Position numbers and translations under genes: made by a program | Notes under the pieces: generated by a model | What the model was told of the DNA's origin: nothing | What the model saw: only the letters and a program-made list of their open reading frames with translations | The model's database searches: none | Assembly (NCBI GenBank): GCA_900316805.1 | Contig: ONEJ01000085.1 | Coordinates: 18,644-82,643, forward strand | Length of the DNA: 64,000 nt | DNA from: an uncultured Lachnospiraceae bacterium | GTDB lineage: Bacteria > Bacillota > Clostridia > Lachnospirales > Lachnospiraceae | Reading direction: 5' to 3' | Shown: piece by piece, positions 23,974-63,704 of the stretch | Layout: each line of letters opens with the position of its first letter | How positions within the stretch are numbered: the stretch's first letter is position 1

Positions 23974-23988
23974 CTTGGAGTGGGTTAG

Positions 23989-24753: not shown

Positions 24754-24762
24754 GAGAGGGCT

Positions 24763-25077
24763 ATGGCAATCGGACCGATTAATTATGCAATGATACAACG
24801 AACCGGTGATGTGGAGCATATCCGGCATATGGAGGATGCCAGACCGCTGGCAAATCAGCAGAATATTCAAAATCAGGTGGATCAACGGGAGGATACCTTA
24901 AGACATCAGGTGACGGATTCTAAGGGCAGCGACCGGACTCACAACGATGCCGATGCGAAGGATGAGGGGAAGGGAAACTACAGTTCTCAGGGGAATGTGA
25001 GAAAGAAAGAAAAGAAGAAGCCGGATGCGGGACGGGTCGTCCGAAAGGAGAGCAGAGGCTTTGATATAAAGATTTGA
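24763..25077 (+). CDS. Conserved hypothetical flagellar-operon protein
   Basis: A 104-residue, highly charged hydrophilic protein with no signal or membrane helix. It starts MAIGPINYAMIQRTGDVEHIR and ends in a basic stretch (RKKEKKKPDAGRVVRKESRG) followed by FDIKI. Ordered-looking ends and a disordered, Asp/Lys/Asn-rich centre suggest that the two ends bind partners. It lies 9 bp behind the sigma factor gene with GGAGAG upstream. I do not recognise a characterised family; an adaptor or chaperone-like role in motility is only a guess. Confidence 0.75.
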   Translation: MAIGPINYAMIQRTGDVEHIRHMEDARPLANQQNIQNQVDQREDTLRHQVTDSKGSDRTHNDADAKDEGKGNYSSQGNVRKKEKKKPDAGRVVRKESRGFDIKI

Positions 25078-25086
25078 GGATAGAAT

Positions 25087-39400: not shown

Positions 39401-40962
39401 GCGGCTGCGATATGCCGGACAAAATCTGTCCCCGCTGTGGGAAACCTCTCTCAAAGGAGGGCTTTGATATCCCCTTTGAAACCTTCCTGGGATTTAAGGG
39501 AAACAAGGAGCCGGATATCGATCTGAATTTCTCCGGAGAGTACCAGAGTAAGGCCCACAAGTACACGGAGGTTATTTTCGGGGAGGGACAGACCTTCAAG
39601 GCCGGCACCATCGGTACTCTGGCAGATAAGACAGCTTTTGGATATGTGAAGAATTATTATGAGGAGCGGGGCGTACATAAGCGAAACTGCGAGATTGACC
39701 GCATCGTGCAGGGCTGTGTAGGAGTCAGACGAACCACCGGACAGCATCCGGGTGGTATCGTGGTGCTGCCTATGGGAGAACAGATTTATACCTTTACCCC
39801 CATCCAGCATCCGGCCAACGATATGACGGTGGACATTACAACCACACACTTTGATTACCACAGTATTGACCATAACCTGTTAAAGCTTGACATTCTCGGG
39901 CACGACGATCCTACCATGATCCGTATGCTGCAGGATCTCACCGGTGTGGATCCCACGCAGATTCCTTTAGATGATCCGGCAGTTATGTCCCTGTTTCAGA
40001 ATACCAGTGCGCTGGGGGTGACCCCGGAGGAACTGGAAGGCTGTCAGCTGGGGGCTCTGGGAATCCCGGAGTTCGGTACGGATTTTGCCATGGGCATGCT
40101 TATTGACACCCAGCCCAAGGAATTTTCGGATTTGATCCGTATTGCAGGACTTTCCCATGGTACGGATGTATGGCTGGGCAACGCACAGACATTGATTCAG
40201 GAGAAAAAGGCAACCATTTCCACCGCCATCTGTACCCGTGATGATATTATGATCTATCTGATCGGCATGGGGCTGGATTCGGAGGAATCCTTTAAGATCA
40301 TGGAGGCCGTCCGTAAGGGAATGGTGGCCAAGGGCAAATGTGACAAGTGGCCGGAGTGGAAGCAGGATATGATTGACCACGGGGTTCCGGACTGGTATAT
40401 CTGGTCCTGTGAGAAGATTAAGTACATGTTTCCGAAGGCTCATGCCGCCGCCTATGTAATGATGGCGTGGCGTATTGCCTACTGTAAGGTGTTTTACCCT
40501 CTTGCCTATTACGCGGCGTATTTTTCCATCCGTGCCACGGGCTTTTCCTACGAGCTTATGTGTCAGGGGAAGGATAAGCTGGAGGCCTATATGAAGGATT
40601 ACCAGCGGAGAAAGGATGAATTGTCAAAGAAGGAGCAGGATACCTACAAGGATATGCGTCTGGTACAGGAAATGTATGCCAGAGGCTTTGAGTTCCTGCC
40701 TATTGATATTTACAAGTCAAAGCCGCACCATTTCCAGATCATAGACACAAAACTGCTTCCGTCCCTCAATACCATTGAAGGCCTGGGAGACAATGCGGCG
40801 GTTGCCATTGCGGAGGCTGCAAAGGATGGGATGTTTTTGTCCAAGGATGATTTCCGGGAGCGCACCAAGGTCTCCAAAACGACCATCGAGCTGATGAGCG
40901 ACCTGGGACTTTTTGGAGATTTGCCGGATTCCAACCAGCTGTCCCTGTTTGATTTTGCCTAG
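36451..40962 (+). CDS. polC: DNA polymerase III PolC-type alpha subunit
   Basis: A 1503-residue replicative polymerase of low-GC Gram-positives. The order is an N-terminal domain, an OB fold (about 285-375), a PHP domain (from HCHTKMSDMDG, about 390) interrupted by a DEDD 3'-5' exonuclease (VVFDLETTG, about 473-640), a zinc-finger cysteine set (CKHCKY and CPRCGKP, about 965-1000), and the polymerase palm (EPDIDLNFSGEYQ, about 1020). It proofreads with its own exonuclease. Length is typical. A 478-bp palindrome begins 22 bp after the stop. Confidence 0.97.
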   Translation: MAKAFIEAFPTLQLSGELQGLLETAEVTKISANREYTHIRIYLRAKRLIFKKKIWQLEKEIASQIFQNKDIRVRVIESFELSEQYTPQSLMEVYRDSILDELESYSVLEYNALRTAQTEFDSPKHMTLLMEDTIISRERTEEIVEFLEKVVCERCGMDFIITPELKERKESKYRKNSDIQIQQEVAEIARRAKAALQSKGEEGGMEPVSDSKTEEEKETANTAKKVEESAPAVKTAAERKAPSFGKKGEFRRKFERDNPKKSMNPDVLYGRDFEEEPITIDKIDGPIGEVVIRGQILTVDTREIRGEKTIIIFSMTDFTDTIVLKVFTRNEDVKELLSGISAGKFIKVKGVATIDKFDSDLTIGSIVGIKKTADFRTMRMDNSAVKRVELHCHTKMSDMDGVSDVKDIVKRAMKWGHKAIAITDHGDVQAFPDANHTVEGNEDFKVIYGVEAYLVDDLKDIVTDSRNQSLEADYVVFDLETTGFSPENNRIIEIGAVKVQGGKITDKFSTFVNPQVPIPFRIEQLTSINDSMVIDAPPIEQILPQFMEFCEGCVMVAHNADFDMSFIKKNCMRQGMECRPTIVDTVGLARILLPNLNRFKLDTVAKALGVSLDNHHRAVDDAGCTAEIFVKFIDMLKSRGIETLDEVNCLGSSSVENVQKMPTYHAIILATCDQGRTNLYRLVSLAHIKYYNRRPRIPKSEFLKYRDGLLIGSACEAGELYRAILNARPQEEIARLVEFYDYLEIQPLGNNAFLVRDEDSAVASDEDLIEINKKIVKLGEEFHKPVVATCDVHFLDPEDEIYRRIIMCGQGFKDADDQAPLYLRTTEEMLKEFEYLGSEKAEEVVITNPNRIADMCERISPVRPDKCPPVIENSDQMLRDICYNKAHKMYGDPLPDIVQERLERELNSIISNGYAVMYIIAQKLVWKSNEDGYLVGSRGSVGSSFVATMSGITEVNPLHAHYLCKHCKYSDFDSELVQSYAGRGGCDMPDKICPRCGKPLSKEGFDIPFETFLGFKGNKEPDIDLNFSGEYQSKAHKYTEVIFGEGQTFKAGTIGTLADKTAFGYVKNYYEERGVHKRNCEIDRIVQGCVGVRRTTGQHPGGIVVLPMGEQIYTFTPIQHPANDMTVDITTTHFDYHSIDHNLLKLDILGHDDPTMIRMLQDLTGVDPTQIPLDDPAVMSLFQNTSALGVTPEELEGCQLGALGIPEFGTDFAMGMLIDTQPKEFSDLIRIAGLSHGTDVWLGNAQTLIQEKKATISTAICTRDDIMIYLIGMGLDSEESFKIMEAVRKGMVAKGKCDKWPEWKQDMIDHGVPDWYIWSCEKIKYMFPKAHAAAYVMMAWRIAYCKVFYPLAYYAAYFSIRATGFSYELMCQGKDKLEAYMKDYQRRKDELSKKEQDTYKDMRLVQEMYARGFEFLPIDIYKSKPHHFQIIDTKLLPSLNTIEGLGDNAAVAIAEAAKDGMFLSKDDFRERTKVSKTTIELMSDLGLFGDLPDSNQLSLFDFA

Positions 40963-40983
40963 ACTTTAAACTTGCTGTCAGGG

Positions 40984-41461
40984 TTTTCCCACGGCCCCGC
41001 CTGGCGTCTGGGTTCCCCGGGGATGCACCTGCAAAACTCGCGCCAAATTGCTGATTTGTCCGGTATCGGATTTCGGCTCTTTTGATGATTTATGTTCATT
41101 CGACAGCCGGACACTTCCGCGGCGGCGTCCGTCCGGGGCAGACATTCGATTTATGCCAAGCCGTGTGAGAGTTAATGCCTCTATTTACAAAAGCGGGCAA
41201 GGGAAATACACGTTCAAGCGAAGCGCGTTTGTATTTCCCTTGCCCAATAGGCTCTGTGGATAGAGACATTTACTCGTACTAGGCGAAGGCATCATGAGAG
41301 TGTCTGCCCCGGACGGACGCCGCCGCGGAAGTGTCCGGCTGGCGAATGTACACAAACTTGGAGCCGAAATCCGATACCGGACAAATCTTCGCAATTTGGC
41401 GTGAAATGTTTTGCAGGTGCATCCCCGGGGAACCCAGACGCCAGGCGGGGCCGTGGGAAAA
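40984..41461. repeat. 478-bp giant palindrome (long inverted repeat element)
   Basis: Almost the whole 648-bp gap between polC and the next gene is one imperfect palindrome. The outer 54 bp (40984-41037 and 41408-41461) are perfectly inverted. A second block (about 41039-41079 with 41361-41400) is nearly perfect. A 40-bp block (41105-41144 with 41301-41340) is perfect, and the centre is a 16-bp stem (41195-41210 with 41230-41245). Outer arms are GC-rich. Short open frames within it mirror one another because of the symmetry and are not convincing genes. It may be a non-autonomous mobile element or a strong bidirectional terminator. Confidence 0.92.
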
Positions 41462-41489
41462 TTAGAAGTTTTGTAACTATTTAAGAGTA

Positions 41490-41513
41490 GCACAAAACAC
41501 TTGCTGTTTTGTG
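41490..41513. repeat. Small hairpin beside the giant palindrome
   Basis: GCACAAAAC (41490-41498) pairs with GTTTTGTGC (41505-41513) across a 6-nt loop. It lies between the palindrome and the 3' end of the minus-strand gene and has no clear T tract. Confidence 0.5.
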
Positions 41514-41575
41514 CGTATGAACATGATGTAATAGCAATAATGCCATCGCGAAGCGATTTTAAATGCATTTTTGTT

Positions 41576-41607
41576 TCGTAACTGTGAGGGTACTGAACAG
41601 ATACGAA
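41576..41607. repeat. Degenerate 30-nt intergenic palindrome (copy 2)
   Basis: The arms CGTAACTGT and ACAGATACG (within 41576-41607) form an imperfect stem just behind the 3' end of the minus-strand DUF5050 gene. They resemble the arms of the palindromes at 35288, 42689 and 50161, but the left arm has diverged. Confidence 0.45.
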
Positions 41608-41610
41608 GTT

Positions 41611-42630
41611 TTATTGGATAACACCCGGGTGGAAGGGCGTAAGCTCCCCCGGGTTTTCGGTGGGGGTGCAGAAAACCTCCCTGGTCTTATAATCCGTAAA
41701 ATAGATATAGTAAGAGGTTACATTGATGTTGGAGTAATTTCCCCGGGCCAGTATCTGAAAGCCGGTGCCGTTGTTTTTTATCATGCAAAGGGCAGGATCA
41801 TTTTTGTCGTAGCGCTGGTAAAAGATTGTGCTGCCGTAAACATTGAAGAGGTCAATGCTGTCTCTGGAGAGAGTGATGGGATTGTCTGCCTGGATGTTGG
41901 TGTGCACCAGAGCATTGTCCTGGTCTACATCCAGATAATAGACATTGTTGTCGCTGGTGACAATGGGTTTATAGCAGTTGCAGTCATAGATTTTTGTCTT
42001 CTGGTCAGTGGTGGTGTCATATTGATAGAGAGCGCCGTCCTCCTCCGTGCCGTTGGAATAGAAGTATTGTCCCAGGGCACTGCAGGTAAAGATATAAGGG
42101 TTGTATACCTGCTGTTTGTCGGTTCCGTCGATGCCCACCTTATAGAGGGTTGTAGCCTGCTGCTTGTCATAGTGCAGGTAATAGACATAGTTGCCGATGA
42201 GGGTGGCATAGATGCAGGGATCCGGATCCAATATGGCGATATCCCCGCCGTTTCTGGAAATACGGCAGAGACTGTTATTGGCGAAGGTGAAAAAGCCGAA
42301 GCTGGCGCTGTTTCTGTCATTGTTTCGCACATAGTAGACGTAGTGGGAATCTGCGTTGATGTACATGACAGTGTCATCGCAGAGCTTCTTTAAATTCTGT
42401 CCGTCCAGATCCATGGAATAGAGACGGTAGTTGTCATCGGGATTGGCAAAGAAGACGGTTCCGCTGTTCTCGCAGAAGAGTCCGGCATTGTAGAGATTGC
42501 CGGCGGTGTTGCCGTTTACGAAGCTGTTATTGTATCGAATTCTTGTTTGAAAATGATAGAAGACGCTGCAACCGATGACTGCAATCAGCAGCAGAATGGC
42601 CAGCGCAAAGTATTTTTTTTTCATGCTCAT
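41611..42630 (-). CDS. DUF5050-type surface beta-propeller protein
   Basis: A 339-residue protein with an N-terminal membrane anchor or uncleaved signal (about residues 4-25) and an extracellular chain of repeated short blades such as VFFANPDDNYRLYSMDLDGQ and YVYYLHYDKQQATTLYKVGI. The repeated pattern of YYx and xLYKxxxDG is that of DUF5050 beta-propellers, whose function is unknown but which are often surface-exposed in Firmicutes. AAGGAG lies 4 bp before the first ATG and 10 bp before a second in-frame ATG (42624), so either start is possible. It is a single-gene unit with its own promoter, opposite to its neighbours. Confidence 0.8.
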   Translation of the reverse strand: MSMKKKYFALAILLLIAVIGCSVFYHFQTRIRYNNSFVNGNTAGNLYNAGLFCENSGTVFFANPDDNYRLYSMDLDGQNLKKLCDDTVMYINADSHYVYYVRNNDRNSASFGFFTFANNSLCRISRNGGDIAILDPDPCIYATLIGNYVYYLHYDKQQATTLYKVGIDGTDKQQVYNPYIFTCSALGQYFYSNGTEEDGALYQYDTTTDQKTKIYDCNCYKPIVTSDNNVYYLDVDQDNALVHTNIQADNPITLSRDSIDLFNVYGSTIFYQRYDKNDPALCMIKNNGTGFQILARGNYSNINVTSYYIYFTDYKTREVFCTPTENPGELTPFHPGVIQ

Positions 42631-42657
42631 GTTTCTCCTTTGTGCATATCTTATTTT

Positions 42658-42686
42658 ATTATATAGTCTGGCGGGGGGTGTTGCAA
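42658..42686 (-). promoter_or_regulatory. Sigma-A promoter of the DUF5050 gene
   Basis: On the minus strand TTGCAA (complement of 42681-42686) and a perfect TATAAT (complement of 42658-42663) are 17 bp apart. The perfect 30-nt palindrome at 42689-42718 abuts the -35 box on its upstream side. Confidence 0.75.
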
Positions 42687-42688
42687 GG

Positions 42689-42718
42689 GTTACAGTTCAC
42701 ATACTTGTGAACTGTAAC
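42689..42718. repeat. Perfect 30-nt intergenic palindrome (copy 3)
   Basis: GTTACAGTTCAC (42689-42700) and GTGAACTGTAAC (42707-42718) are exact inverse repeats around a 6-nt loop. It lies between two divergent promoters. It could be an operator or a dispersed repeat copy; compare 35288 and 50161. Confidence 0.85.
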
Positions 42719-42757
42719 GAACAACGTAACCTGTAAGGGGAAGTTCGGCTGATTCCC

Positions 42758-42787
42758 TTGATTAATTAAGCAGAAAAGTGATAATAT
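42758..42787 (+). promoter_or_regulatory. Probable promoter of the HAD phosphatase gene
   Basis: TTGATT (42758-42763) is followed after 18 bp by TAATAT (42782-42787), with an alternative GATAAT at 16 bp. The start codon is 34 bp downstream. Confidence 0.5.
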
Positions 42788-42821
42788 AAAGGCACAAGGA
42801 TATACGAAAGGAAAAGGGATT

Positions 42822-43589
42822 ATGAGTTTAAAACTTGAGAAGGCAATTCTGCCGGATACCTACGACAATTATGTGTTTGACCTGTACGGAACCCTGGTGG
42901 ATATCCACACGGATGAAGGCAATACAGAAGTCTGGGAAAAGCTTGCATTGTTTTACGGTTATTATGGGGCCTGTTATGAGCCGGATGAATTGGAAAAACA
43001 TTATGGGGAACTAGTGAGGGGAAAGGAGGCTTCCCTTAAGATGACTCTTGAAAGTGATCCCCATTATGCCCATGAATCCTCCCCGGAAATCGAGATAACT
43101 GATGTGTTTTCTTCATTGTTTGCAAAAAAGGGCGTAGAAGCGGACAGAAATCTTGCGGTACATGCCGGTCAGTTTTTCCGCGTCCTCTCCACCGAATATG
43201 TAAAGCTGTATCCGGGAACTGCCGAAATGCTTAAGGATCTGAAGGATAAGGGGAAAAAGGTATATCTTCTTTCCAATGCCCAGAGGATTTTTACTGCTTA
43301 TGAGATGAATCTGATCGAGATCTCCCAATATTTTGACGATATTTTTATCTCCTCGGATTTTCAGACGAAAAAGCCGGATCAGCGTTTTTTCCAGGCCTTA
43401 ATGGACAAGCATGATCTTAAGGCGGACAAGACCCTGTTTATCGGCAATGACAGCCGCTGCGATATTGATGGGGCAAGGCAGGTGGATTTTCACACCTTTT
43501 ATGTGAATTCCAATATTTCACCGAAGGATGACCATGCCGAAGAGGCGGATTATGTTGTAGAAGATTTTACCGAGTGGCTGACAAAGTAA
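42822..43589 (+). CDS. HAD-superfamily hydrolase (YjjG-like phosphatase)
   Basis: A 255-residue HAD enzyme with motif I in YVFDLYGTLVD (nucleophile Asp), motif II in YLLSNAQR, the conserved Lys in QTKKPDQRFF, and motif IV in LFIGNDSRCDIDGA. The cap is of the helical C1 type. Such proteins dephosphorylate small metabolites such as nucleotides. The substrate cannot be told from sequence. A bidirectional terminator separates it from the convergent next gene. Confidence 0.85.
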   Translation: MSLKLEKAILPDTYDNYVFDLYGTLVDIHTDEGNTEVWEKLALFYGYYGACYEPDELEKHYGELVRGKEASLKMTLESDPHYAHESSPEIEITDVFSSLFAKKGVEADRNLAVHAGQFFRVLSTEYVKLYPGTAEMLKDLKDKGKKVYLLSNAQRIFTAYEMNLIEISQYFDDIFISSDFQTKKPDQRFFQALMDKHDLKADKTLFIGNDSRCDIDGARQVDFHTFYVNSNISPKDDHAEEADYVVEDFTEWLTK

Positions 43590-43593
43590 ATGA

Positions 43594-43640
43594 AAATGCC
43601 TATTCCATTCAATGAAAGCAAAAGGAATAGGCATTCTTTT
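43594..43640. terminator. Bidirectional intrinsic terminator
   Basis: AATGCCTATTCC (43594-43605) and GGAATAGGCATT (43623-43634) form a perfect 12-bp stem. On the + strand it is followed by CTTTTT. On the minus strand it is followed by TTCATTT. It lies between two convergent genes. Confidence 0.85.
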
Positions 43641-44173
43641 TAACGGAACATATGATTTCCGATTCTTAATCTGCAGTTTTTCAGATATACGGAGAAGAAC
43701 AGGTAGGAGTTCATATTGGTTTCTTTTCCGTTCAGTGTCAGCGTCCGGCGTCCTTCAAGCACCTGCCGGGCAGCTTTGATGGAATCCTTATGATTCTTCT
43801 GAGTGAATTTTCCCTGATCGTAGAGCTTCAGTGTTCTGGAAAGTGCACCGGAACGGACCGGAGAAAACTGTCCTTTCTGGTAAATTACCTCGCTGATGCT
43901 GTTGGGAAATAAATCAGAATTCACGCGGTTCATCACAACGATACCTACGGCAACCTTGCCATTATAGGATTCTGCACCTGCCTCACAGAAAATGATGGCA
44001 GACATGAGACGAAGCTGGTCTTCTGTGTAAGCCGGCTCCTCGGTAAGCTGGCAATTTTTTATTTTTTGCAAAGATTGATCTTTTGTAGAAGCTTTAGCCA
44101 GAACAGGGCTGCTAAACAGTACTGTGAAGGCTAACAGAAAGGTAATCATTCTTTTATGGGTGGCTTTATTCAT
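43640..44173 (-). CDS. Secreted SleB-type cell wall hydrolase
   Basis: A 177-residue protein with a signal peptide (about residues 1-28, ending near VLAKAS) and a Hydrolase_2/SleB catalytic domain (about 50-177). The catalytic Glu is in AIIFCEAGAESYNGKVAVG, followed by VVMNRV. SleB proteins are lytic transglycosylases that open spore cortex or vegetative peptidoglycan. Without a peptidoglycan-binding domain the target is uncertain. It has its own promoter on the minus strand. Confidence 0.85.
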   Translation of the reverse strand: MNKATHKRMITFLLAFTVLFSSPVLAKASTKDQSLQKIKNCQLTEEPAYTEDQLRLMSAIIFCEAGAESYNGKVAVGIVVMNRVNSDLFPNSISEVIYQKGQFSPVRSGALSRTLKLYDQGKFTQKNHKDSIKAARQVLEGRRTLTLNGKETNMNSYLFFSVYLKNCRLRIGNHMFR

Positions 44174-44248
44174 AATATTGTAATCTCCTTATTACGATTA
44201 TGTGTCACTCTGACTAATGACGTAATTTTTTTGTAACATTTCTTAACA

Positions 44249-44276
44249 ATAATAACATAATTATGGGATTTGTCAA
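44249..44276 (-). promoter_or_regulatory. Sigma-A promoter of the SleB-type gene
   Basis: On the minus strand a perfect TTGACA (complement of 44271-44276) and TATTAT (complement of 44249-44254) are 16 bp apart. Confidence 0.65.
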
Positions 44277-44325
44277 CCCTTTTATGATTTATGCAGACAG
44301 ATGCGCGAAAGGAACAGAAGTATTT

Positions 44326-45090
44326 ATGAAGAATTATAAAATGATTGTAGCTTACGATGGAACCCGCTACCGGGGATGGCAGATCCAGAAGAATACCGAT
44401 GCCACCATCCAGGGAAAACTTTCCATGGTGCTTGGCAATCTGGCAGGTCATACGGTGGAGGTGATCGGATCCGGCAGGACGGATGCGGGGGTGCATGCTC
44501 TGGGTCAGACGGCAAATTTTCATCTGGAGGAGCATTTTACCAGGGAGGAGATTTGGGAATATCTCAATCATTACCTTCCGGAAGACATTGTTATCACAAA
44601 AATAGATGAGGTTGACAATCGGTTTCACAGCCGGTACAACGCCGTGAGCAAGACCTACAGCTACCGGATAAGGACCAGTCCTATACCGGATGTGTTTTCG
44701 AGACGGTTCTGCTATCAATATGGAAAGCCTCTGGAGGAAGAGCGGATGAAGGAGGCAGCAGGATATCTGCTGGGAACCCACGACTTTGCTTCTTTTTGCG
44801 GCAATAAGCATATGAAGAAATCGACGGTCCGTACCATATACAAAATCGAGTTTTTGAAGAAGGAGGGGGAACTTACAATCTCCTATACAGGAAACGGTTT
44901 TCTGCAGGGAATGGTAAGAATCCTTACCGGGACACTGATCGAGGTGGGAAGAGGAGACCGAACCCCGGAGAGTATGAAAACCCTGTTGGAGGCAAAGTGC
45001 AGGGAACTGGCAGGGTATACTGCGCCGCCCCAGGGACTTCGGCTGGAGCAGGTGGAATACGAAGCGGAAGCTGTGAAAGCCGGCAGCTGA
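44326..45090 (+). CDS. truA: tRNA pseudouridine(38-40) synthase TruA
   Basis: A 254-residue enzyme that modifies the tRNA anticodon arm. The start MKNYKMIVAYDGTRYRGWQ and the catalytic SGRTDAGVHALGQ motif (Asp nucleophile) are typical, and the C-terminal part with FCGNKHMKKSTVRTIYKIE follows. The ATG at 44326 gives the family length; the frame extends upstream into a divergent promoter region without family similarity. AAAGGA is 12 bp away, which is long. Confidence 0.95.
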   Translation: MKNYKMIVAYDGTRYRGWQIQKNTDATIQGKLSMVLGNLAGHTVEVIGSGRTDAGVHALGQTANFHLEEHFTREEIWEYLNHYLPEDIVITKIDEVDNRFHSRYNAVSKTYSYRIRTSPIPDVFSRRFCYQYGKPLEEERMKEAAGYLLGTHDFASFCGNKHMKKSTVRTIYKIEFLKKEGELTISYTGNGFLQGMVRILTGTLIEVGRGDRTPESMKTLLEAKCRELAGYTAPPQGLRLEQVEYEAEAVKAGS

Positions 45091-45125
45091 TGCGAAAAGA
45101 ATAGAAAAATGTCGAAATTTATTTC

Positions 45126-45154
45126 TTGACAAACGAAAAATATAGTATTAGAAC
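45126..45154 (+). promoter_or_regulatory. Probable promoter of the liv locus
   Basis: A perfect TTGACA (45126-45131) is followed after 17 bp by TAGAAC (45149-45154), a 4-of-6 match to the -10 consensus. The leader would be over 200 nt. Confidence 0.5.
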
Positions 45155-45187
45155 GTGTCTAAATTGAATCGGACAAATCATACAAAG

Positions 45188-45220
45188 GTGTACAGGCAGA
45201 GATGGTCTGTGCACTTTTTT
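45188..45220 (+). terminator. First leader terminator of the liv locus
   Basis: GTGTACAG (45188-45195) pairs with CTGTGCAC (45207-45214) with one wobble, followed by six T residues. It would stop transcription about 60 nt after initiation and so may act as an attenuator. Confidence 0.7.
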
Positions 45221-45302
45221 ATTTTCTGATCTGTCAGATTCCTTTGATGGGGCGTCAGCTTTTGATTCCTGCATCAAACATATCATAGAACTTGGAACGG
45301 AC

Positions 45303-45340
45303 AAAGGGGTTCGGCAGCGATTGCTGCTGCACCCTTTTTT
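45303..45340 (+). terminator. Second leader terminator of the liv locus
   Basis: GGGT (45307-45310) with ACCC (45331-45334), plus the inner GCAGC with GCTGC, form a hairpin followed by six T residues. Its flanks repeat features of the first leader hairpin, including the preceding CGGACAAA, so the two are related elements in tandem. Confidence 0.6.
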
Positions 45341-45376
45341 GTTCTGAGGCAGAATGAAGAAAGAGAGGAAAAATCT

Positions 45377-45887
45377 ATGAGAAAGAAAAAACTGGTAAGC
45401 ATGTTTCTGGCAGTTGGAATGGCACTCAGCATGATGGCCTGCGGCGGTGCAGCACAGGATTCCGCAGGTGAGTCTTCCCAGGCAGCAAAGGAAGACAGTG
45501 GAGCTGCGGCAGGGGATACCATTACTCTTCAATGATTTCTACTTCATTAACCACTACGCAGAGGATCTGGCAGCTACCGATGTTTCCTCTTACTTTGTAA
45601 GCTCCTACAAAGAAAAATATGGGGAAAGCCCAAACAACTTCGATGCTCTGGGCTACGATGCAGTTCTGGTATACAAGAAGGCCATCGAGGCAGCCAATGC
45701 AGTAGATGCAGCAAGCGTTCAGGCAGCCCTTTCTGACACCAGCGTGGTTTACGAAGTGGCCAGCGGTAAGTTCTCCTTCGATGAGACCGGTACTCCCATT
45801 AAGAGTGGTGTGCTGATGGGCTACAGCTATCAGGAGGGCGATACAACCATCACAAAGAAAGCAATTCAGACTCTGGAAGCACAGTAA
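45377..45887 (+). pseudogene. livJ: livJ remnant: branched-chain amino acid binding lipoprotein, deleted and frameshifted
   Basis: Codons from 45377 encode a lipoprotein signal (MRKKKLVSMFLAVGMALSMM followed by ACGG) and a Ser/Ala/Gly linker, ending at TGA 45533-45535 after GDTITLQ. From 45528, in another frame, the C-terminal part of a LivJ solute-binding protein begins (DFYFINHYAEDLAATDVSSY and GYDAVLVYKKAIEAANAVDA) and runs to the stop at 45887. A full LivJ has about 390 residues; here only about 52 plus 119 remain, so roughly 220 codons of the ligand-binding domain are lost. The product cannot work as a binding protein. AGGAAAAAT-type leader and promoter remain upstream. Confidence 0.85.
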
Positions 45888-45977
45888 ACCGTTTCCTGCC
45901 TGAGTTTGAAGAGGAGAGGTGTTTACCCCTCCTCTTCGTATCATTTTAAGTATACTATAGAAAGAGGGGACAAGCAT

Positions 45978-46099
45978 ATGGTTACCTTTATCCAGTTTTT
46001 GATCACGGGACTGCGGCTGGGCAGCGTGTATGCGCTCATTGCACTTGGTTACACCATGGTGTATGGAATCATCAAGCTGATCAATTTTGCTCATGGTGG
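45978..46099 (+). pseudogene. livH: livH 5' fragment, frameshifted
   Basis: From the ATG at 45978 (GAGGGG upstream) the product reads MVTFIQFLITGLRLGSVYAL and LGYTMVYGIIKLINFAHG, the conserved LivH N-terminus. At AHG the frame is lost: intact LivH continues with a DVLMVGGY-type sequence, and here the bases coding MVGGYTLFF continue in another frame. A short deletion between two ATGGTG-like repeats would explain it. The out-of-frame reading stops at 46238. Confidence 0.8.
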
Positions 46100-47106
46100 G
46101 CGGCTACACGCTGTTTTTCACAATCCCGCTCATGATGAAGATCGGACTGCCGGGATGGCTGGCAGTTATTCTTGCAATTATCGTCTGTTCCTGCGTAGGT
46201 ATGCTAATGGAACTTCTGGCATACCGGCCGGTGCGTAAGAAAGGCACCAACCTGACGGCGCTGATCACGGCCATTGCCATGAGCTTTGTGCTGGAAAATC
46301 TGGCCCAGGCAATACCGGCGATCGGACCGGATCCGAGGGTACCTTACACCTTGTTCAGTAAAACGGTCACCATCGGAAAGGTGTCCATCAGCAGTGCAAC
46401 CTTTATTACCATCCTTGTAGTAGTAATCGTAAGTTTTCTGGCGGCAGGAATTTTGGCAGCACTGCTGGGACTGATCGTTGGTATTCCGGCCCTCAGACTG
46501 AAGGGGGATTACCTTGCCATTATTACACTGGGCTTTGGCATGATCATCGTAAATCTGATCAACAATATTCCTTTCTGCGGACAGCAGGGACTGGGTCGGG
46601 GTGTTGCATCTTCCTCTTTGTATGCCAATGGTCTGGGACTTTCAAACGATGATAAAATGAAATACATGTGGATTGGCGTGGTGACCGTTATCATCTGTAT
46701 GATCATCATGTTTATGTTTGTCCGCTCCAAATATGGGCGCATCATAAGGGCAATTCGGGATAATGAGATTGCAGCCAGTGCCTCTGGCATCAATGTAAGC
46801 TTCTATAAGGTGCTGACCTTTGCCTTTACCAATGGATCCATCCTGAACTCGGTGTTTATCGTGGTTATGGTGGTCATCGGCGGTATGGGATCCCTCACCG
46901 GCTCCGTGGTGGCGGCTATCGGTATGTTTATTTTGAACTATATCATCAAAAATGGTGCCTGGGTCAATGCACTGCCCGGCTTCTTAAAGAGTATGTTTAC
47001 CTATCCGATGCTGGTGTACTCCATTGCATTGATTATTGTGATTATGTTCCGACCCCACGGAATTATGGGAACCAAGGAATTTGCTTTGTGTGACATTCCG
47101 AAATGA
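46087..47106 (+). CDS. LivH-LivM chimeric permease reading frame (degenerate)
   Basis: An open frame of 339 codons. The first part is LivH (MVGGYTLFFTIPLMM to about VSISSATFITILVVV), with the AYRPVRKKGTNLTALITAIA block. From SFLAAGILAALLGLIVGIPA it is LivM (ALRLKGDYLAIITLGFGMII and RAIRDNEIAASASGINVSFY). A further in-frame gap lies after KVLTFAF, where LivM proteins have about 25 more residues before VVMVVIGGMGS. The end (GTKEFALCDIPK) departs from the usual LivM tail, which can still be seen in another frame (KRARQKEA at about 47145-47172). It lacks the LivH start, so a working permease is unlikely. The fusion looks like recombination between adjacent paralogues. Confidence 0.75.
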   Translation: MLMVGGYTLFFTIPLMMKIGLPGWLAVILAIIVCSCVGMLMELLAYRPVRKKGTNLTALITAIAMSFVLENLAQAIPAIGPDPRVPYTLFSKTVTIGKVSISSATFITILVVVIVSFLAAGILAALLGLIVGIPALRLKGDYLAIITLGFGMIIVNLINNIPFCGQQGLGRGVASSSLYANGLGLSNDDKMKYMWIGVVTVIICMIIMFMFVRSKYGRIIRAIRDNEIAASASGINVSFYKVLTFAFTNGSILNSVFIVVMVVIGGMGSLTGSVVAAIGMFILNYIIKNGAWVNALPGFLKSMFTYPMLVYSIALIIVIMFRPHGIMGTKEFALCDIPK

Positions 47107-47177
47107 CCCAAAGAAATCAAGGCTTATTTTGCAGGAAAAGTGGCAAAGCGGGCACGGCAGAAGGAGGCGTAAGTACG

Positions 47178-47903
47178 ATGGATGAGAAGAAAACGCCGGT
47201 ACTGCAGACGAAGCACTTAGGGATTACCTTTGGTGGTCTTCGGGCAGTGAACGATTTTAATATGGAAATATATAAGGGCGAACTGGTAGGTCTGATCGGA
47301 CCCAACGGAGCGGGAAAAACCACCACACTGCATACGATTTCCGGTCTTTTACACGCCAGCAGCGGGGAGATTCTTATGGATGATAAAAATCTTCAGAAGG
47401 TGCCGGCCAACAAAATTATCGAATTGGGACTGGCCCAGGTGCCGGAGGGGCGTCATGTATTTGCCCAGATGACGGTGCTGGAAAATCTGTATATGGGTGC
47501 TTATATTTTAAAGGATAAAGCAAAAATCAAAGAAAATATCGAGTTGGTCTATTCCCATTTTCCAAGGCTGAAGGAACGGTCCAACCAGCTGGCGGGAACT
47601 CTTTCCGGCGGAGAACAGCAGATGCTTGCCACAGGACGGGCTCTTATGACCAATCCGAAAATTCTTCTGATGGATGAGCCTTCTATGGGACTTTCCCCGT
47701 TACTGGTTTCTGAGATCTTCTCCATTATTCAGGAACCGCACCGGGATGGGATTACGATTCTTCTGGTGGAGCAGAATGCGAAAATGGCTCTTTCCGTGGC
47801 AAATCGGGCTTACGTGCTGGAGAATGGTAAGATCTCCATGTCGGGAGATGCGAAGACCCTGCTGAGTGACAGCAGAGTGAAAAAGGCTTATCTGGGAGCC
47901 TGA
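47178..47903 (+). CDS. LivG-LivF chimeric ABC transporter ATPase
   Basis: A 241-residue ATPase with all motifs: Walker A GPNGAGKTT, Q-loop region AQVPEGRHVF, signature LSGGEQQ, Walker B ILLMDEPS. The first 48 residues are LivG-like (LGITFGGLRAVNDFNMEIYK), while everything after the Walker A (TLHTISGLLHASSGEI, VPEGRHVFAQMTVLENLYMG and LLVEQNAKMALSVANRAYVL) is LivF-like. The junction falls in the sequence shared by the two paralogues, as expected from unequal recombination that removed one gene length. The ATG at 47178 has AAGGAGG 10 bp upstream. The ATPase may be active, but its permease partners are damaged. Confidence 0.82.
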   Translation: MDEKKTPVLQTKHLGITFGGLRAVNDFNMEIYKGELVGLIGPNGAGKTTTLHTISGLLHASSGEILMDDKNLQKVPANKIIELGLAQVPEGRHVFAQMTVLENLYMGAYILKDKAKIKENIELVYSHFPRLKERSNQLAGTLSGGEQQMLATGRALMTNPKILLMDEPSMGLSPLLVSEIFSIIQEPHRDGITILLVEQNAKMALSVANRAYVLENGKISMSGDAKTLLSDSRVKKAYLGA

Positions 47904-47915
47904 AAGGAGGCTGTT

Positions 47916-48533
47916 ATGGAACACAAAGTGATTACGATTGCCCGGGAGACGGGAAGCGGCGGCTACCACGTTGCACAGAAGCTGTCGAAGCTTTTGGTAA
48001 TTCCTTGCTATGACAGGGAGCTTTTGCGCCGGGCATCGGATGTGAGCGGCATTCATGAGCGGCTGTTTGGCCTGGCAGATGAGCGGAGCGGCTGGAAGGA
48101 GATGATTACCTCCGCGAAGAAGGTTTATAATGGTGAAATCCTTCCGGCAGACAGCGATGACTATATTTCCACCAGCAACCTCTTCAGCTTCCAGGCGAAG
48201 ATCATCAAGGATCTGGCGAAGGAAGAGAGCTGTATCATTTTGGGGCGCTGCGGCAATTATCTGCTGAAGGACCAGCCGGATGTGGTGCGGGTGTTTATCC
48301 ATGCACCATTGGAGGTCAGATATAAGAATGTGGCTTCCTACTCCGAAGGCAAATCCGAGAGCGAAATCCTGCGGGAGATTCGTAAGGAGGACAAACGCCG
48401 TTCGGCCTATTATCATTATTATACCGGGGAAGAATGGCGGGATGTGTCCGGCTACGACCTGTGTCTGGACTCCTCTAAGCTGGGAGAAGATGGCTGTGCG
48501 GAAAAAATTTGCCGGCTTTTGGAACTTTTCTGA
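47916..48533 (+). CDS. Cytidylate kinase-like family protein
   Basis: A 205-residue P-loop protein (ITIARETGSGGYHVAQKLSK) of the cytidylate-kinase-like family, which is common in gut Firmicutes. A second conserved block is IILGRCGNYLL, and the C-terminal part has an Arg-rich lid (EIRKEDKRRSAYYHYYTGEE). It differs from the true Cmk in length and lid, so the substrate is unknown. It follows the liv remnant by 12 bp and shares its transcript. AAAGGAGG precedes the ATG. Confidence 0.82.
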   Translation: MEHKVITIARETGSGGYHVAQKLSKLLVIPCYDRELLRRASDVSGIHERLFGLADERSGWKEMITSAKKVYNGEILPADSDDYISTSNLFSFQAKIIKDLAKEESCIILGRCGNYLLKDQPDVVRVFIHAPLEVRYKNVASYSEGKSESEILREIRKEDKRRSAYYHYYTGEEWRDVSGYDLCLDSSKLGEDGCAEKICRLLELF

Positions 48534-48542
48534 GTAAAAATA

Positions 48543-48571
48543 TTGATTTTTCTGTAAAAGTGTTGTACAAT
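48543..48571 (+). promoter_or_regulatory. Sigma-A promoter of the citrate synthase gene
   Basis: TTGATT (48543-48548) and TACAAT (48566-48571) are spaced by 17 bp. Confidence 0.65.
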
Positions 48572-48585
48572 ACAGAAAAATGAAG

Positions 48586-48623
48586 AAACACCGATTACGA
48601 AGATGTATGCGTAATCGGTGTTT
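48586..48623 (+). promoter_or_regulatory. Hairpin in the citrate synthase leader
   Basis: AAACACCGATTACG (48586-48599) and CGTAATCGGTGTTT (48610-48623) form a perfect 14-bp stem with a 10-nt loop, followed by an interrupted T tract (TTTTGTGTTTT). It starts only about 10 nt after the likely transcription start, so it is either a terminator for upstream genes or a 5' attenuator or stabiliser. Confidence 0.6.
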
Positions 48624-48672
48624 TGTGTTTTAAAAGATGTATGTATCAGACAGGCTGAGTGAGGTAGCAGAT

Positions 48673-50082
48673 ATGGAAGAACTGATGAATGGTCTTGAAA
48701 ATGAAATTGTGAAGGAAATGCCGGATATTGATGAGATGGGAGAACTCCGCCGGGATGTGGAAACACTACATGTGGAGTTGTTAAAGAATCACCGCATTGA
48801 TCCGAGTCTTTATGAGAAATATGATGTGAAGCGGGGACTGCGGGATTCTGCCGGAAAGGGTGTACTGACCGGACTGACGGAAATCTCCGACGTCTGTGCC
48901 TATGCCATGGAGGATGGGAAGAAGGTTCCCTCCGACGGTAATCTCTATTATCAGGGCGTGAATGTAAGGGAAATTGTAAAGGGGCTGAAGGGACGAAGAT
49001 TCGGGTTTGAGGAGACCATTTATCTTCTGATGTTCGGAAAACTTCCCAATGAGAAAGAACTGGAGATGTTTCTTCATGTGATGTTCGAAATGCAGCATCT
49101 GGGCAGTCGTTTTGTCCGGGATGTGGTGATGAAGGCTTCCAACTCCAACATTATGAATGCACTGCAGCGTTGTGTGCTTACCCTTTATACCTACGATTCC
49201 AACCCGGATGACATCAGTGTACGGAATGTACTGCGCCAGTCGCTGGAGTTGATCAACAAGCTTCCGTTGATTGCAGTTTATTCCTATCGTTCCTACTGCC
49301 ATTTCCGGAAGGACGAGACCCTGATGATCCGGAATCCGAAAAGGGGATTATCCATGGCAGAAAATATCCTTCTTATGCTTCGGCCGGACGGAAAATACAC
49401 AGAGCTGGAGGTAAAGGTTCTGGACATCGCCCTGATTCTTCACGCAGAGCATGGCGGCGGCAATAACTCCACCTTTACTACCCACGTGGTAACCTCCTCC
49501 GGCACGGATACTTATTCCTCTGTGGCAGCTTCCATCGGTTCCCTGAAGGGATCGAGGCACGGCGGTGCCAACCTAAAGGTTCAGAATATGTTTAAGGATA
49601 TCAAGGAGCATGTGAAGGACTGGAGCAATCAGGAGCAAATTGCGGCGTATCTGAATAAGATATTGGATAAAGAGGCATTTGACCATTCCGGTCTGATCTA
49701 TGGAATGGGACATGCCGTCTACACTTTATCGGATCCGCGAGAGGTAATTCTTAAGGATTTTGCAAGGAAGCTGGCGGTGGAGAAGGGCATGACCGAAGAA
49801 TTTTCCCTGTATGAGACCGTGGAAAATATTGCAGGGAAGCTGATCATGGAGCGCCGTAAGGTGTTCAAAAATGTCTGTGCCAATGTGGATTTTTACAGTG
49901 GGTTTGTTTACACCATGCTGGGAATCCCGGAGGAACTCTTCACGCCAATCTTTGCCATTTCCCGTATTTCTGGCTGGTGTGCACACCGGCTGGAGGAACT
50001 TATTAACGCCAACAAGATCATTCGTCCGGCATACAAATATGTAGGCGAACACGTGGATTACAACGGAATGGACAACCGGTAA
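48673..50082 (+). CDS. gltA: Citrate synthase
   Basis: A protein of 469 residues from the ATG at 48673, which has TGAGG 8 bp upstream; an in-frame ATG at 48637 lies without a ribosome site. It makes citrate from acetyl-CoA and oxaloacetate, here probably for glutamate synthesis through a partial TCA branch. The family motifs are visible: YDVKRGLRDSAGKGVLTGLT, HAEHGGGNNSTFTTHVVTSS (catalytic His), LKGSRHGGANLKV and GMGHAVYTLSDPRE. It belongs to the longer clostridial type. It stands alone between its own promoter and a hairpin terminator. Confidence 0.94.
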   Translation: MEELMNGLENEIVKEMPDIDEMGELRRDVETLHVELLKNHRIDPSLYEKYDVKRGLRDSAGKGVLTGLTEISDVCAYAMEDGKKVPSDGNLYYQGVNVREIVKGLKGRRFGFEETIYLLMFGKLPNEKELEMFLHVMFEMQHLGSRFVRDVVMKASNSNIMNALQRCVLTLYTYDSNPDDISVRNVLRQSLELINKLPLIAVYSYRSYCHFRKDETLMIRNPKRGLSMAENILLMLRPDGKYTELEVKVLDIALILHAEHGGGNNSTFTTHVVTSSGTDTYSSVAASIGSLKGSRHGGANLKVQNMFKDIKEHVKDWSNQEQIAAYLNKILDKEAFDHSGLIYGMGHAVYTLSDPREVILKDFARKLAVEKGMTEEFSLYETVENIAGKLIMERRKVFKNVCANVDFYSGFVYTMLGIPEELFTPIFAISRISGWCAHRLEELINANKIIRPAYKYVGEHVDYNGMDNR

Positions 50083-50112
50083 ATGACTGAAATTTCAAAT
50101 ACGGATTTATGC

Positions 50113-50135
50113 ACGGCCCCCTTTTTGGGGGCCGT
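50113..50135 (+). terminator. Hairpin terminator after gltA
   Basis: ACGGCCCCC (50113-50121) and GGGGGCCGT (50127-50135) form a perfect GC-rich 9-bp stem with a T5 loop. The downstream T tract is weak (TGTGTGTC), so termination efficiency is unsure. Confidence 0.6.
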
Positions 50136-50160
50136 TGTGTGTCTCTCTGGAAATCTGAAT

Positions 50161-50190
50161 GTTACATTTCGCAGGTGTGTGAACTGTAAC
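50161..50190. repeat. 30-nt intergenic palindrome (copy 4)
   Basis: GTTACATTTCGC (50161-50172) and GTGAACTGTAAC (50179-50190) pair with one mismatch and one wobble around a 6-nt loop. The right arm is identical to that at 42707-42718. It lies 40 bp upstream of the pheA promoter. Confidence 0.75.
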
Positions 50191-50230
50191 ATCTGAATCA
50201 AATGATAAGATTCTGTTTTTTGGAGATATC

Positions 50231-50259
50231 TTGCCTTTTGGGAGGAACTGTAATAAAAT
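50231..50259 (+). promoter_or_regulatory. Probable promoter of pheA
   Basis: TTGCCT (50231-50236) and TAAAAT (50254-50259) are 17 bp apart, with the start codon 30 bp downstream. Confidence 0.55.
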
Positions 50260-50289
50260 CATTGGTATAGAAAGCCAAGGAGAATTTGT

Positions 50290-51420
50290 ATGAGAGATTT
50301 ACAGGAAATCCGCAAGGAGATCGATGAGATTGACGATCAGATCGTAGCGTTATATGAAAATCGTATGAAGCTGACTTCCGAAGTGGCAGAGTATAAGATC
50401 GACACGGGGAAGAAGATTTTTGACAAAGAGAGGGAGGAGTCCAAGCTTACCACATTAGGGCAGAAGGCCTCCTGCGATTTTACCAGGAATGGGATCCGGG
50501 AACTTTTCGAACAGATCATGGCCATGAGCCGCAAGAAGCAGTACCAGCTTCTGACGGAGCATGGGATTGTGGAAAAGCCGGAATTTCAGAATGTGGACCG
50601 GCTGGAAGTCCGAAATGCCCGGATTGTGTTTCAGGGGCTGGAGGGAGCTTACAGCCAGCAGGCCATGGAGGAGTTTTTCGGAGAAAACTGTGATAATTTT
50701 CATGTGGATACATGGAAGGATGCCATGGAGGCGATTGCAGATGGCAGGGCAGATTATGCGGTGCTTCCCATCGAAAATTCCTCTGCCGGGATTGTGTCGG
50801 AAAACTACGATCTGTTAGTGGAGTATGATAACTATATCGTGGGGGAACAGATCATTAAGATCGATCATGCCCTGTTGGGAATGCCGGGGGCGAAAGAGAG
50901 CGATATCAAGAGTGTGTATTCCCACAAGCAGTCCCTGATGCAGTGCAGTGATTTCCTGGAGGAGCACGGGGATTGGGAGAAATGCAGTCTCAGTAATAAT
51001 GCGGTGGCAGCCCGGAAAATCTGCGAGGATGGACGGTTGGATCAGGCCGCGATCGCCAGTGCCAGAAACGCTGAGATCTATGGTCTTCACGTGCTGCGGG
51101 AATCCATCCAGAATAACAAGAATAACTCTACCCGGTTTATCATTGTGACCGGTGAGCGGATTTATACCAGAGATGCGGGACGAATCAGTATCTGCTTTGA
51201 AGTAAAGCATGAGAGTGGTGCGTTGTACCATGCCCTTTCTCATTTTATTTACAATGGAATCAACATGACCAATATCCAGTCAAGACCTCTGCAGAACAGA
51301 AACTGGGAATACCGGTTTTTCGTGGATTTTGAAGGGTGCTTTGGTGATGAGGCTGTGCAGAATGCGCTGAGGGGCTTGAAAGAGGAGACAATCTCCCTCA
51401 AAATTCTGGGAACCTACTAA
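50290..51420 (+). CDS. pheA: Bifunctional chorismate mutase/prephenate dehydratase
   Basis: A 376-residue enzyme of phenylalanine synthesis. The chorismate mutase domain is residues 1-90 (RKEIDEIDDQIVALYENRMK), the prephenate dehydratase domain about 108-285 (FQGLEGAYSQQA, LPIENSSAGIV and NNKNNSTRFIIV), and an ACT domain for phenylalanine feedback is about 295-376 (with IQSRP). The fused CM-PDT layout is typical of Lachnospiraceae. No leader peptide or T-box was seen upstream. Confidence 0.95.
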   Translation: MRDLQEIRKEIDEIDDQIVALYENRMKLTSEVAEYKIDTGKKIFDKEREESKLTTLGQKASCDFTRNGIRELFEQIMAMSRKKQYQLLTEHGIVEKPEFQNVDRLEVRNARIVFQGLEGAYSQQAMEEFFGENCDNFHVDTWKDAMEAIADGRADYAVLPIENSSAGIVSENYDLLVEYDNYIVGEQIIKIDHALLGMPGAKESDIKSVYSHKQSLMQCSDFLEEHGDWEKCSLSNNAVAARKICEDGRLDQAAIASARNAEIYGLHVLRESIQNNKNNSTRFIIVTGERIYTRDAGRISICFEVKHESGALYHALSHFIYNGINMTNIQSRPLQNRNWEYRFFVDFEGCFGDEAVQNALRGLKEETISLKILGTY

Positions 51421-61026: not shown

Positions 61027-62034
61027 ATGTTTACAACAATTGAGTTATTTGCAGGCGCTGGGGGATTAGCATTGGGAGTTGAAAAAGCTGGATTTCATAC
61101 AATTGGTTTGGTGGAATGTGATAGGGATGCCTGTGATACTTTGTGTAAAAACAGACCGGAATGGAATGTAATATGTGATGATATTGCCAATATATCAGGT
61201 CAGGATTTGGAGCAGTTGTTTGGTGTGAAAAAGGGGGAACTGGATTTGCTGTCCGGAGGGGCTCCTTGTCAGGCATTCTCGTATGCGGGAAAGAGACTGG
61301 GGTTAGAGGATGCAAGGGGAACTTTATTTTACCACTATGCTGTATTTCTTGAAAAATTGCAACCGAAGATGTTTTTGTTTGAAAATGTAAGAGGTTTGTT
61401 AACCCATGATAAGGGAAAAACGTATCGTACAATTCTTGATATTTTTGAGAAAACCGGATATGTAATACAGAAGGAAGTGTTAAATGCCTGGGATTATGGG
61501 GTTGCTCAAAAAAGAGAGCGTTTAATGACTGTTGGAATTAGAAAAGACCTTGCCGGTAAGATAAAATACGAATTTCCGGAGAAACACGAATACAAACCTG
61601 TGTTGAGAGATGTATTGCAGAATGTTCCGGAAAGTATAGGGGTTCAATATGGTGAAAGCAAGAGAAAAATATTTGAGTTGGTGCCACCAGGTGGATATTG
61701 GAGAGATATTGACCCGGATATAGCAAAATCATATATGAAAAGCTGCTGGAATATGGAGGGCGGAAGAACCGGAATATTGCGGAGAATGAGTATGGACGAG
61801 CCATCTTTGACCATATTAACATCACCATCCCAGAAACAGACAGAACGTTGTCATCCATTGGCGGCAAGACCATTTACAGTCAGAGAAAATGCAAGGTGCC
61901 AGAGTTTTCCGGATGAATGGGAATTTTGTGGTAGTGTTATGTCGCAGTATAAACAGGTAGGAAATGCAGTACCGGTGAATCTGGCATATGAAGTTGCAAA
62001 AGAAATACATAAGGCATTGGAGGGGGACAAATAA
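61027..62034 (+). CDS. Type II DNA (cytosine-5-)-methyltransferase
   Basis: A 335-residue m5C methyltransferase. Motif I FAGAGGLALG binds AdoMet, motif IV GGAPCQAFSYAGKR holds the catalytic Cys, motif VI is FENVRG, motif VIII AQKRERL, and motif X QVGNAVPVNL. The variable target-recognition region lies at about residues 190-280. With the downstream endonuclease it forms a type II system; the Eco47II/Sau96I relatives suggest a GGNCC or GGWCC target. The gene is more AT-rich than its neighbours, which implies horizontal transfer. GAGGTAAG precedes the ATG. Confidence 0.93.
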   Translation: MFTTIELFAGAGGLALGVEKAGFHTIGLVECDRDACDTLCKNRPEWNVICDDIANISGQDLEQLFGVKKGELDLLSGGAPCQAFSYAGKRLGLEDARGTLFYHYAVFLEKLQPKMFLFENVRGLLTHDKGKTYRTILDIFEKTGYVIQKEVLNAWDYGVAQKRERLMTVGIRKDLAGKIKYEFPEKHEYKPVLRDVLQNVPESIGVQYGESKRKIFELVPPGGYWRDIDPDIAKSYMKSCWNMEGGRTGILRRMSMDEPSLTILTSPSQKQTERCHPLAARPFTVRENARCQSFPDEWEFCGSVMSQYKQVGNAVPVNLAYEVAKEIHKALEGDK

Positions 62035-62924
62035 TGGAATGGAATCTGAAATTCATTTCAGAAGAAGATTTTACGGAACATGTTAGAGCTACCATTGAAA
62101 AGTATGGTGAGAAGCTTGAATCATTTGATATTAAGCGTTTTAACAAGAACATTATTGATCCTATAAAACTGATTTTTGATAAAACAGTATATCGTTCAAC
62201 CTGGGATGAGATTGTAAGCAATGAAATCTTCAGACAAAGAGATAAGGCAAATAACAATGATATCGGATATTTTCACCAAAGAATATTTCAGTATATTACA
62301 AACTGTCATGTACCTGAAAACGGAAAAGAGGGCGGCTGGGATGTGATATACAAAAATGCAGATGGTGTGACATTACCGGATGGCGACGTGGTCCATAATG
62401 TATATGTGGAGATGAAAAATAAGCATAATACCATGAATTCTGCATCAGCAGGTAAGACATACATAAAAATGCAGAATCAGTTGCTGAAGGATGATGATTG
62501 TGCATGCTTTCTTGTGGAAGCAATAGCTCAAAGGTCACAGAATGTCAAGTGGGAAACAACGGTTGATAAGAATAAAGTATCTCACAGACGAATAAGAAGG
62601 GTTAGTCTGGATCAGTTTTATGCGTTGGTAACAGGGGAAGAAGATGCATTTTATCAGATGTGTATGGTATTACCGGAAGTTATTGAAAAGGTTGTAAATC
62701 GTGGAGAAGGCATAAATGTTCCGGAAGATACCGTTTTGGATGAACTGAAAAACATTGCTGCTAGGACAGGAGAAGAATCAGAACAGTTATCTATGGCAAT
62801 GGCTGTATATATGCTTGGATTTCATACTTATCATGGATTCAGGGATTATTTAATGGATGAAGATGTATCAGATGAAGCTATGATAAAAAGACTGTATGAA
62901 TATGCGAAAATATGGAATCATTAG
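62034..62924 (+). CDS. Eco47II/Sau96I-family type II restriction endonuclease
   Basis: A 296-residue endonuclease. The sequence ISEEDFTEHVRATIEKYGEK, then NIIDPIKLIFD and NNDIGYFHQRIFQYI, and the block YVEMKNKHNTMNSASAGKTY match the Eco47II family as I recall it. The PD-(D/E)xK site is likely formed by Asp in GGWDVIYKN and the ExK in VEMKNK. It overlaps the methyltransferase by one base, so both are co-translated. AT-rich composition agrees with recent acquisition. The exact recognition site is an inference. Confidence 0.88.
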   Translation: MEWNLKFISEEDFTEHVRATIEKYGEKLESFDIKRFNKNIIDPIKLIFDKTVYRSTWDEIVSNEIFRQRDKANNNDIGYFHQRIFQYITNCHVPENGKEGGWDVIYKNADGVTLPDGDVVHNVYVEMKNKHNTMNSASAGKTYIKMQNQLLKDDDCACFLVEAIAQRSQNVKWETTVDKNKVSHRRIRRVSLDQFYALVTGEEDAFYQMCMVLPEVIEKVVNRGEGINVPEDTVLDELKNIAARTGEESEQLSMAMAVYMLGFHTYHGFRDYLMDEDVSDEAMIKRLYEYAKIWNH

Positions 62925-63628: not shown

Positions 63629-63704
63629 AGTGTTTCATATGCAGCGTCCGCCCATTCGCCGAAGGCGAATTCTGCATGGGCGGATGTTCCTGAAATGTAT
63701 GAAA
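63606..63704. repeat. Small hairpin-rich insert flanked by 14-bp direct repeats
   Basis: TGAAATGTATGAAA occurs at 63606-63619 and again at 63691-63704. Between them are two hairpins: a 12-bp perfect stem (63613-63624 with 63628-63639) that spans the deoC stop codon, and a nested one (63645-63655 with 63676-63686, one wobble, and inner ATTCGCC/GGCGAAT at 63654-63670). No T tract follows. This is the form of a MITE-like insertion with target duplication. Confidence 0.75.

Follow-up and report, generated by a model that had tools for sequence, protein, structure and literature searches.

The liv remnants and their neighbours

We analysed a 64,000-nucleotide stretch of DNA (hereafter, the window) from an uncultured Lachnospiraceae bacterium, whose genome is available as a 2.25-Mb draft in 103 contigs with an estimated completeness of 82.3%. 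Positions 45377-47903 (2,527 bp) hold the remnants of livJ, livH, livM, livG and livF in the standard gene order. An earlier note on this DNA had described a shortened liv locus here, with five genes in 2.5 kb instead of the normal ~4.6-5 kb, and alignment to intact loci together with tblastn searches bore out both its coordinates and its anatomy. Measured from the start of livJ to the end of livF, five intact loci span 4,846-5,210 bp (L143, 4,880; L024, 5,210; L023, 4,846; L025, 4,864; and L027, 4,860 bp). The liv identity of the remnants is not due to chance, as the L024 proteins matched the window with E-values of 6e-51 (3' part of LivJ), 3e-62 (both parts of LivH), 3e-118 (LivF) and 4e-134 (LivM). 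The remnants and flanking features are listed below; G018 denotes the nearest relative found.

44263..45090, plus strand: truA, the intact upstream neighbour; scores above the TIGR00071 cut-off, protein 80% identical to that of G018
45184..45218, plus strand: terminator-like stem-loop 3' of truA, from a pattern scan only
45377..45529, plus strand: 5' remnant of livJ; weak gapped alignment to L143 LivJ residues 2-53, tblastn matches of 41-43% to L023 and L027
45525..45887, plus strand: 3' remnant of livJ, out of frame with the 5' remnant and encoding the C-terminal part of the binding protein; identical to L143 LivJ 296-415 at 79 of 120 residues
45978..46097, plus strand: livH residues 1-40; 40 of 40 identical to L024 LivH
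46090..46431, plus strand: livH residues 43-156; identities of 86/114 with L143 and 78/114 with L024
46420..46818, plus strand: livM residues 105-237; 105 of 133 identical to L024 LivM
46819..47103, plus strand: livM from residue 264 to a TGA codon, by alignment to intact LivM
47178..47305, plus strand: livG from residue 1 to about residue 43-45, up to Walker A, by alignment
47306..47903, plus strand: remainder of livF, from residue ~40 onwards; 172 of 214 residues identical to L143 LivF over 47259-47900
47916..48533, plus strand: intact cytidylate-kinase-like gene; matches PF13189 positions 1-176 of 176
48637..50082, plus strand: intact downstream neighbour, named here as a citrate synthase gene from our reading; shares 90% identity with its G018 counterpart across residues 7-481 of 481

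The livJ 5' remnant reads as a signal peptide with a lipobox-like stretch, followed by what would be the start of the mature protein. The retained part of LivF is ~80% identical to L143 and 76% identical to L024. The kinase gene also lies 3' of livF in L143 and in several other intact liv loci.

Terminator-like stem-loops were found seven times in the region by pattern scan, compared with 3.1 expected in shuffled sequence. One of them, at 45312-45330, stands directly 5' of the livJ remnant and is possibly an attenuator, as judged from the pattern match only. The promoter scan returned no site 5' of livJ and three sites in the whole region, against 4.7 expected, and Rfam gave no match at gathering scores over 40900-50300.

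Five deletions and a premature stop

Deletion sizes were taken against L143 (in genome G205), the nearest intact locus found, and three to four of the deletions were also measured against L024.

45525..45529, plus strand: first deletion, in livJ; 731 bp against L143, frame changed; left end unplaceable on L024
~46090..46098, plus strand: second deletion, in livH; 14 bp against both L143 and L024, frame changed
~46417..46433, plus strand: third deletion, joining livH residue 156 to livM residue 105/106; 746 bp, in-frame fusion
46816..46822, plus strand: fourth deletion, livM residues 238-263; 78 bp against both L143 and L024, in frame
47290..47311 (best breakpoints), plus strand: fifth deletion, joining livG to livF; 770 bp against L143, in frame

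Against L143 the deletions sum to 2,339 bp, and adding this to the 2,527 bp retained gives 4,866 bp, compared with 4,880 bp in L143 itself. The fifth deletion measures 916 bp against L024, in which the gene spacing differs. The fourth removes 26 residues that, by hydropathy, include a hydrophobic segment. In addition to the deletions, a TGA at 47104-47106 truncates the LivM tail at a position occupied by Y in L143 and by W in L024. The frame 3' of this stop still resembles the LivM tail, which differs in the more distant L023, L025 and L027. Much of this had been anticipated by the earlier note, which had called livJ an out-of-frame stub and had livH frameshifted and then running into livM, and livG running into livF. 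We found the 5' and 3' parts of livJ in different frames, with ~242 residues missing relative to L143, a 14-bp deletion in livH followed by the in-frame fusion, and an in-frame livG/livF fusion at Walker A. The list of lesions in that note was nevertheless incomplete, lacking the in-frame 78-bp livM deletion and the LivM stop.

Alignment of the junctions to intact loci had been proposed as a search for microhomology. Within 60 bases in L143 and L024, the exact runs common to the two ends of each deletion were 2 bp for the first (L143 only), 4-5 bp for the second, 2-4 bp for the third, 5 bp for the fourth and 9-10 bp for the fifth. The exact ancestral bases at the junctions cannot be fixed from this comparison because identity to even the closest intact DNA reaches only ~64-70% across the joined matches; at the second deletion, the reconstructed ancestral bases suggest a short direct repeat.

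Transport capacity and origin of the operon

The same alignment to intact liv loci, which had also been proposed, resolved all five deletions against L143. Both L143 and L024 (from the Lachnospiraceae MAG MI.9_6) are livJHMGF importer operons of the LIV-I/HAAT type, and share with the window the gene order, the retained sequence and the trailing kinase gene. The window locus differs from them in its length (2,527 bp versus 4,880 and 5,210 bp), its five deletions and TGA, and its incomplete importer. To place this form among relatives, we compared at least 80 LivF loci from genome contigs and judged the 64 with at least 5.2 kb upstream; the 16 shorter ones, and short same-genus loci, lie outside this count. 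All five genes were present at 75% coverage or more in 59 of the 64. The other five had full-length livH, livM, livG and livF, with livJ unmatched in four and 64% covered in one (L032). Among the matches listed, none of the 64 judged loci had a collapsed form like that of the window. The livJ gene of L032 (L032:3859-5083) seems to consist of two overlapping open reading frames, reflecting a frameshift or a sequence error in an otherwise intact locus.

No single frame encodes a full-length binding protein with a signal peptide, and PF13458 covers only positions 241-336 of 343 in the livJ remnant, compared with 1-336 in L024 LivJ. Neither permease is full-length for BPD_transp_2 (PF02653): the first livH frame matches at positions 2-36 and the fused frame at 51-185 of 269, compared with 2-269 in LivH and 7-266 in LivM of intact L024. 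Instead of two ATPases there is a single LivG/LivF chimera, which has no complete partner at the locus. With a binding protein that lacks its middle, both permeases damaged and one chimeric ATPase left, we consider that these products almost certainly do not form a working importer and infer that transport has been lost. The earlier note had offered two outcomes, a dying transport locus or a minimal form with one permease and one ATPase. The five deletions, the TGA and the intact relatives support the first. The second would require a fused permease and a fused ATPase to work as an importer, and two long frames of 339 and 266 aa do remain, the latter with a complete ABC_tran profile (2-136 of 137). 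However, this form would have no full-length binding protein, a permease cut down to part of its profile with a hydrophobic segment gone at the fourth deletion, and no counterpart in the 64 loci, and we give it next to no probability.

Elsewhere in the 82.3%-complete source genome we found no second Peripla_BP_6 gene, the livJ remnant being the only place that matched. Because the genome is incomplete to this extent, another intact liv operon may sit in the missing part. The other PF02653 places, on contigs C11, C94 and C91, were considered as a second liv operon and rejected, as they adjoin binding proteins or ATPases that we read as being of different types. A BrnQ-type carrier (PF05525) gave no match in the source genome. 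IlvD (PF00920) is present, so part of valine and isoleucine synthesis is encoded, a weak hint as to why import could be lost.

In G018, the interval from truA to the citrate synthase gene contains no liv or kinase gene; a 323-aa open reading frame, lipoprotein-like by our reading, stands there instead. In a LivF tree of 116 rows, in which the bootstrap had not settled, the window LivF pairs with that of G205, from another genus of the same family (100/98), and both fall inside a starred clade of 31 rows that holds no same-genus rows. Of the 19 same-genus rows in the tree, 15 group apart in another starred clade (16 rows; 99/92), and the other four lie elsewhere. On the strength of this tree position and the absence of liv genes from the corresponding site in G018, we favour acquisition of the operon from outside the genus, which probably accounts for its presence better than an old second copy that was lost in relatives. 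In GC content the remnants (0.484) resemble the window (0.475) and not the L143 locus (0.395). Composition therefore does not mark the operon as foreign, and if it was acquired, either the acquisition is not brand new or the donor had a similar GC content.

Several other features of the surrounding DNA were observed. A 7.6-kb block (~42630-50230), comprising genes for a HAD hydrolase, a cell-wall hydrolase and truA, the liv remnants, and the kinase and citrate synthase genes, lies between a DUF5050 gene (41611-42630) and a pheA-type gene (50290). In both G018 and a further genome, G005, the DUF5050 gene is at most ~150 bp from the pheA-type gene; on another G018 contig, truA is found together with the hydrolase and citrate synthase genes. 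A palindromic repeat of ~480 bp (~40984-41461), 3' of polC, aligns with its reverse complement over 497 columns with an 81% match. It occurs at 62 places in the source genome (counting itself and both strands), on many contigs and at some contig ends, many of the copies being partial. The repeat has many places in G018 and, among the matches listed, only short edge matches in G005; Rfam yielded nothing for it at gathering scores. Two restriction-modification genes at 61027-62924, for a C-5 cytosine methylase (PF00145) and an Eco47II-type restriction endonuclease (PF09553), lie between cdd- and deoC-type genes, which are adjacent in G018, where the compared stretches contain no homologue of the methylase or endonuclease. 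Finally, a ~50-bp repeat at ~63639-63690 recurs several times in G018 and matches once in G005.

Mechanism, timing and meaning of the probable decay

To gauge the time since loss, we counted differences at positions that are invariant among the other five loci, treating each intact locus alike. The window differs at 11 of 368 such positions, and the intact loci at 15 of 372, 13 of 370, 12 of 369, 11 of 368 and 17 of 374. Thus, the retained codons carry no excess of substitutions relative to the five intact loci. With no baseline subtracted, the 95% bound on neutral substitutions is ~51 among 2,154 retained bases (2.4%); a baseline of 7 or 11 lowers it to 32 or 20. For most pairs dS was saturated or not computable, and dN/dS gives no date of loss. 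Relaxed selection is not visible in the substitutions, which counts against a reading of decay; only recency reconciles this with five deletions, and the lack of an excess suggests that the loss is recent, although five deletions seem many for so short a time.

The earlier note had attributed the collapse to recombination between adjacent paralogues, a mechanism that stands for the livG/livF junction at most. There, the two genes meet at homologous positions in Walker A, and in the relatives 37-41 of 60 bases match between the two ends. By contrast, the other fusion passes from LivH residue 156 to LivM 105-108, whereas a profile alignment with five rows per family places the homologous position at about LivM 197, so that the livH/livM junction is ~90 residues out of register. 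The first, second and fourth deletions cannot stem from paralogue recombination because each lies inside a single gene. With the register mismatch and the single-gene deletions, this candidate is out as a general mechanism for four of the five junctions, and we regard it as highly improbable that unequal recombination between neighbours caused the collapse. Given the short end runs, the non-homologous LivH/LivM join and the single-gene deletions, four of the five are best classed as illegitimate deletions, and the fifth may be of either kind. It is also very unlikely, in our view, that a single multi-step replication accident produced the deletions, or most of them, simultaneously. In such an accident, up to five forward template skips along the operon would leave five collinear deletions with little shared end sequence and no point-mutation decay between them. 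Indeed, the remnants are collinear on one strand and their ~718 retained codons show no substitution excess, but a nonsense substitution is present too, and nothing supports simultaneity of the deletions. Moreover, five deletions to one stop is not extreme beside a survey of Salmonella pseudogenes, in which short deletions (141) and premature stops (131) are about as common as each other among 346 single-lesion cases (PMC2916853).

All the damage seen lies within the liv locus, which bears on whether the junctions are real. Homologues of 25 of the 29 window genes tested were found in the compared G018 stretches, each with at most seven gapped residues; the DUF5050 homologue is split by a G018 contig end, and the four genes with no match in these stretches are the HAD, kinase and two restriction-modification genes. 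Positions 1-19900 form one match of 19,915 bp in G018, in a comparison that covers the window outside 19900-26000. An assembly or library artefact would place an intact operon in the real genome and derive the junctions from chimeric reads or a mis-joined consensus. Such an origin would suit a draft in 103 contigs, the substitutions without a signal of decay, and five junctions crowded into one short stretch with none in the compared neighbours. The same crowding would call for five independent errors in 2.5 kb, which is unlikely given that the 25 compared genes show no such error, and the TGA is present in addition to the deletions. The usual k-mer word lengths are longer than runs of 2-10 bp. 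As the junction repeats are too short for the usual k-mer collapse, with runs of 9-10 bp at livG/livF and no more than 2-5 bp at any of the other four, a collapsed assembly of repeated sequence, which the earlier note had also raised, is improbable, and we consider an artefact of any of these kinds rather unlikely.

We therefore consider it likely that the locus is a probably acquired livJHMGF operon that recently became non-functional and is eroding by independent deletions with little or no end repeats. Under this reading, livJHMGF and its trailing kinase gene, of a lineage found in other genera, would have arrived at their present site downstream of truA and upstream of the citrate synthase gene. 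Function would have been lost recently, with separate deletions of 731, 14, 746, 78 and 770 bp and a nonsense substitution near the end of livM. Slippage or an end-joining type of mechanism may have produced the deletions, and the livG/livF deletion alone may have used paralogue homology.

Beside two published accounts, the locus shows both similarities and differences. Like young Salmonella pseudogenes (PMC2916853), the locus combines deletions with a premature stop, whole neighbours and little or no accelerated divergence. In that survey, however, a single inactivating mutation is the rule (346 of 378 pseudogenes), and losses of more than 20% of the length are few, whereas the window has one five-gene operon with six lesions and about half its length gone (PMC2916853). 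The endosymbiont Xiphinematobacter likewise keeps part of the liv set and has lost the rest: livF and livH are reported as present, livG, livM, livJ and livK as absent, and the passages considered describe no in-place remnants (PMC4607532).

The locus appears to be a case of ordinary, deletion-rich gene loss in progress. These results correct the proposed mechanism, as four of the five deletions would not stem from paralogue recombination; if the five deletions were in fact one event, the locus would offer a valuable example of bacterial multi-step deletion. Annotation pipelines could call the two long fused frames working LivM and LivF, and a pseudogene flag would serve better. The locus offers a clear snapshot of a probably acquired transport operon that is dying while its neighbours remain whole.
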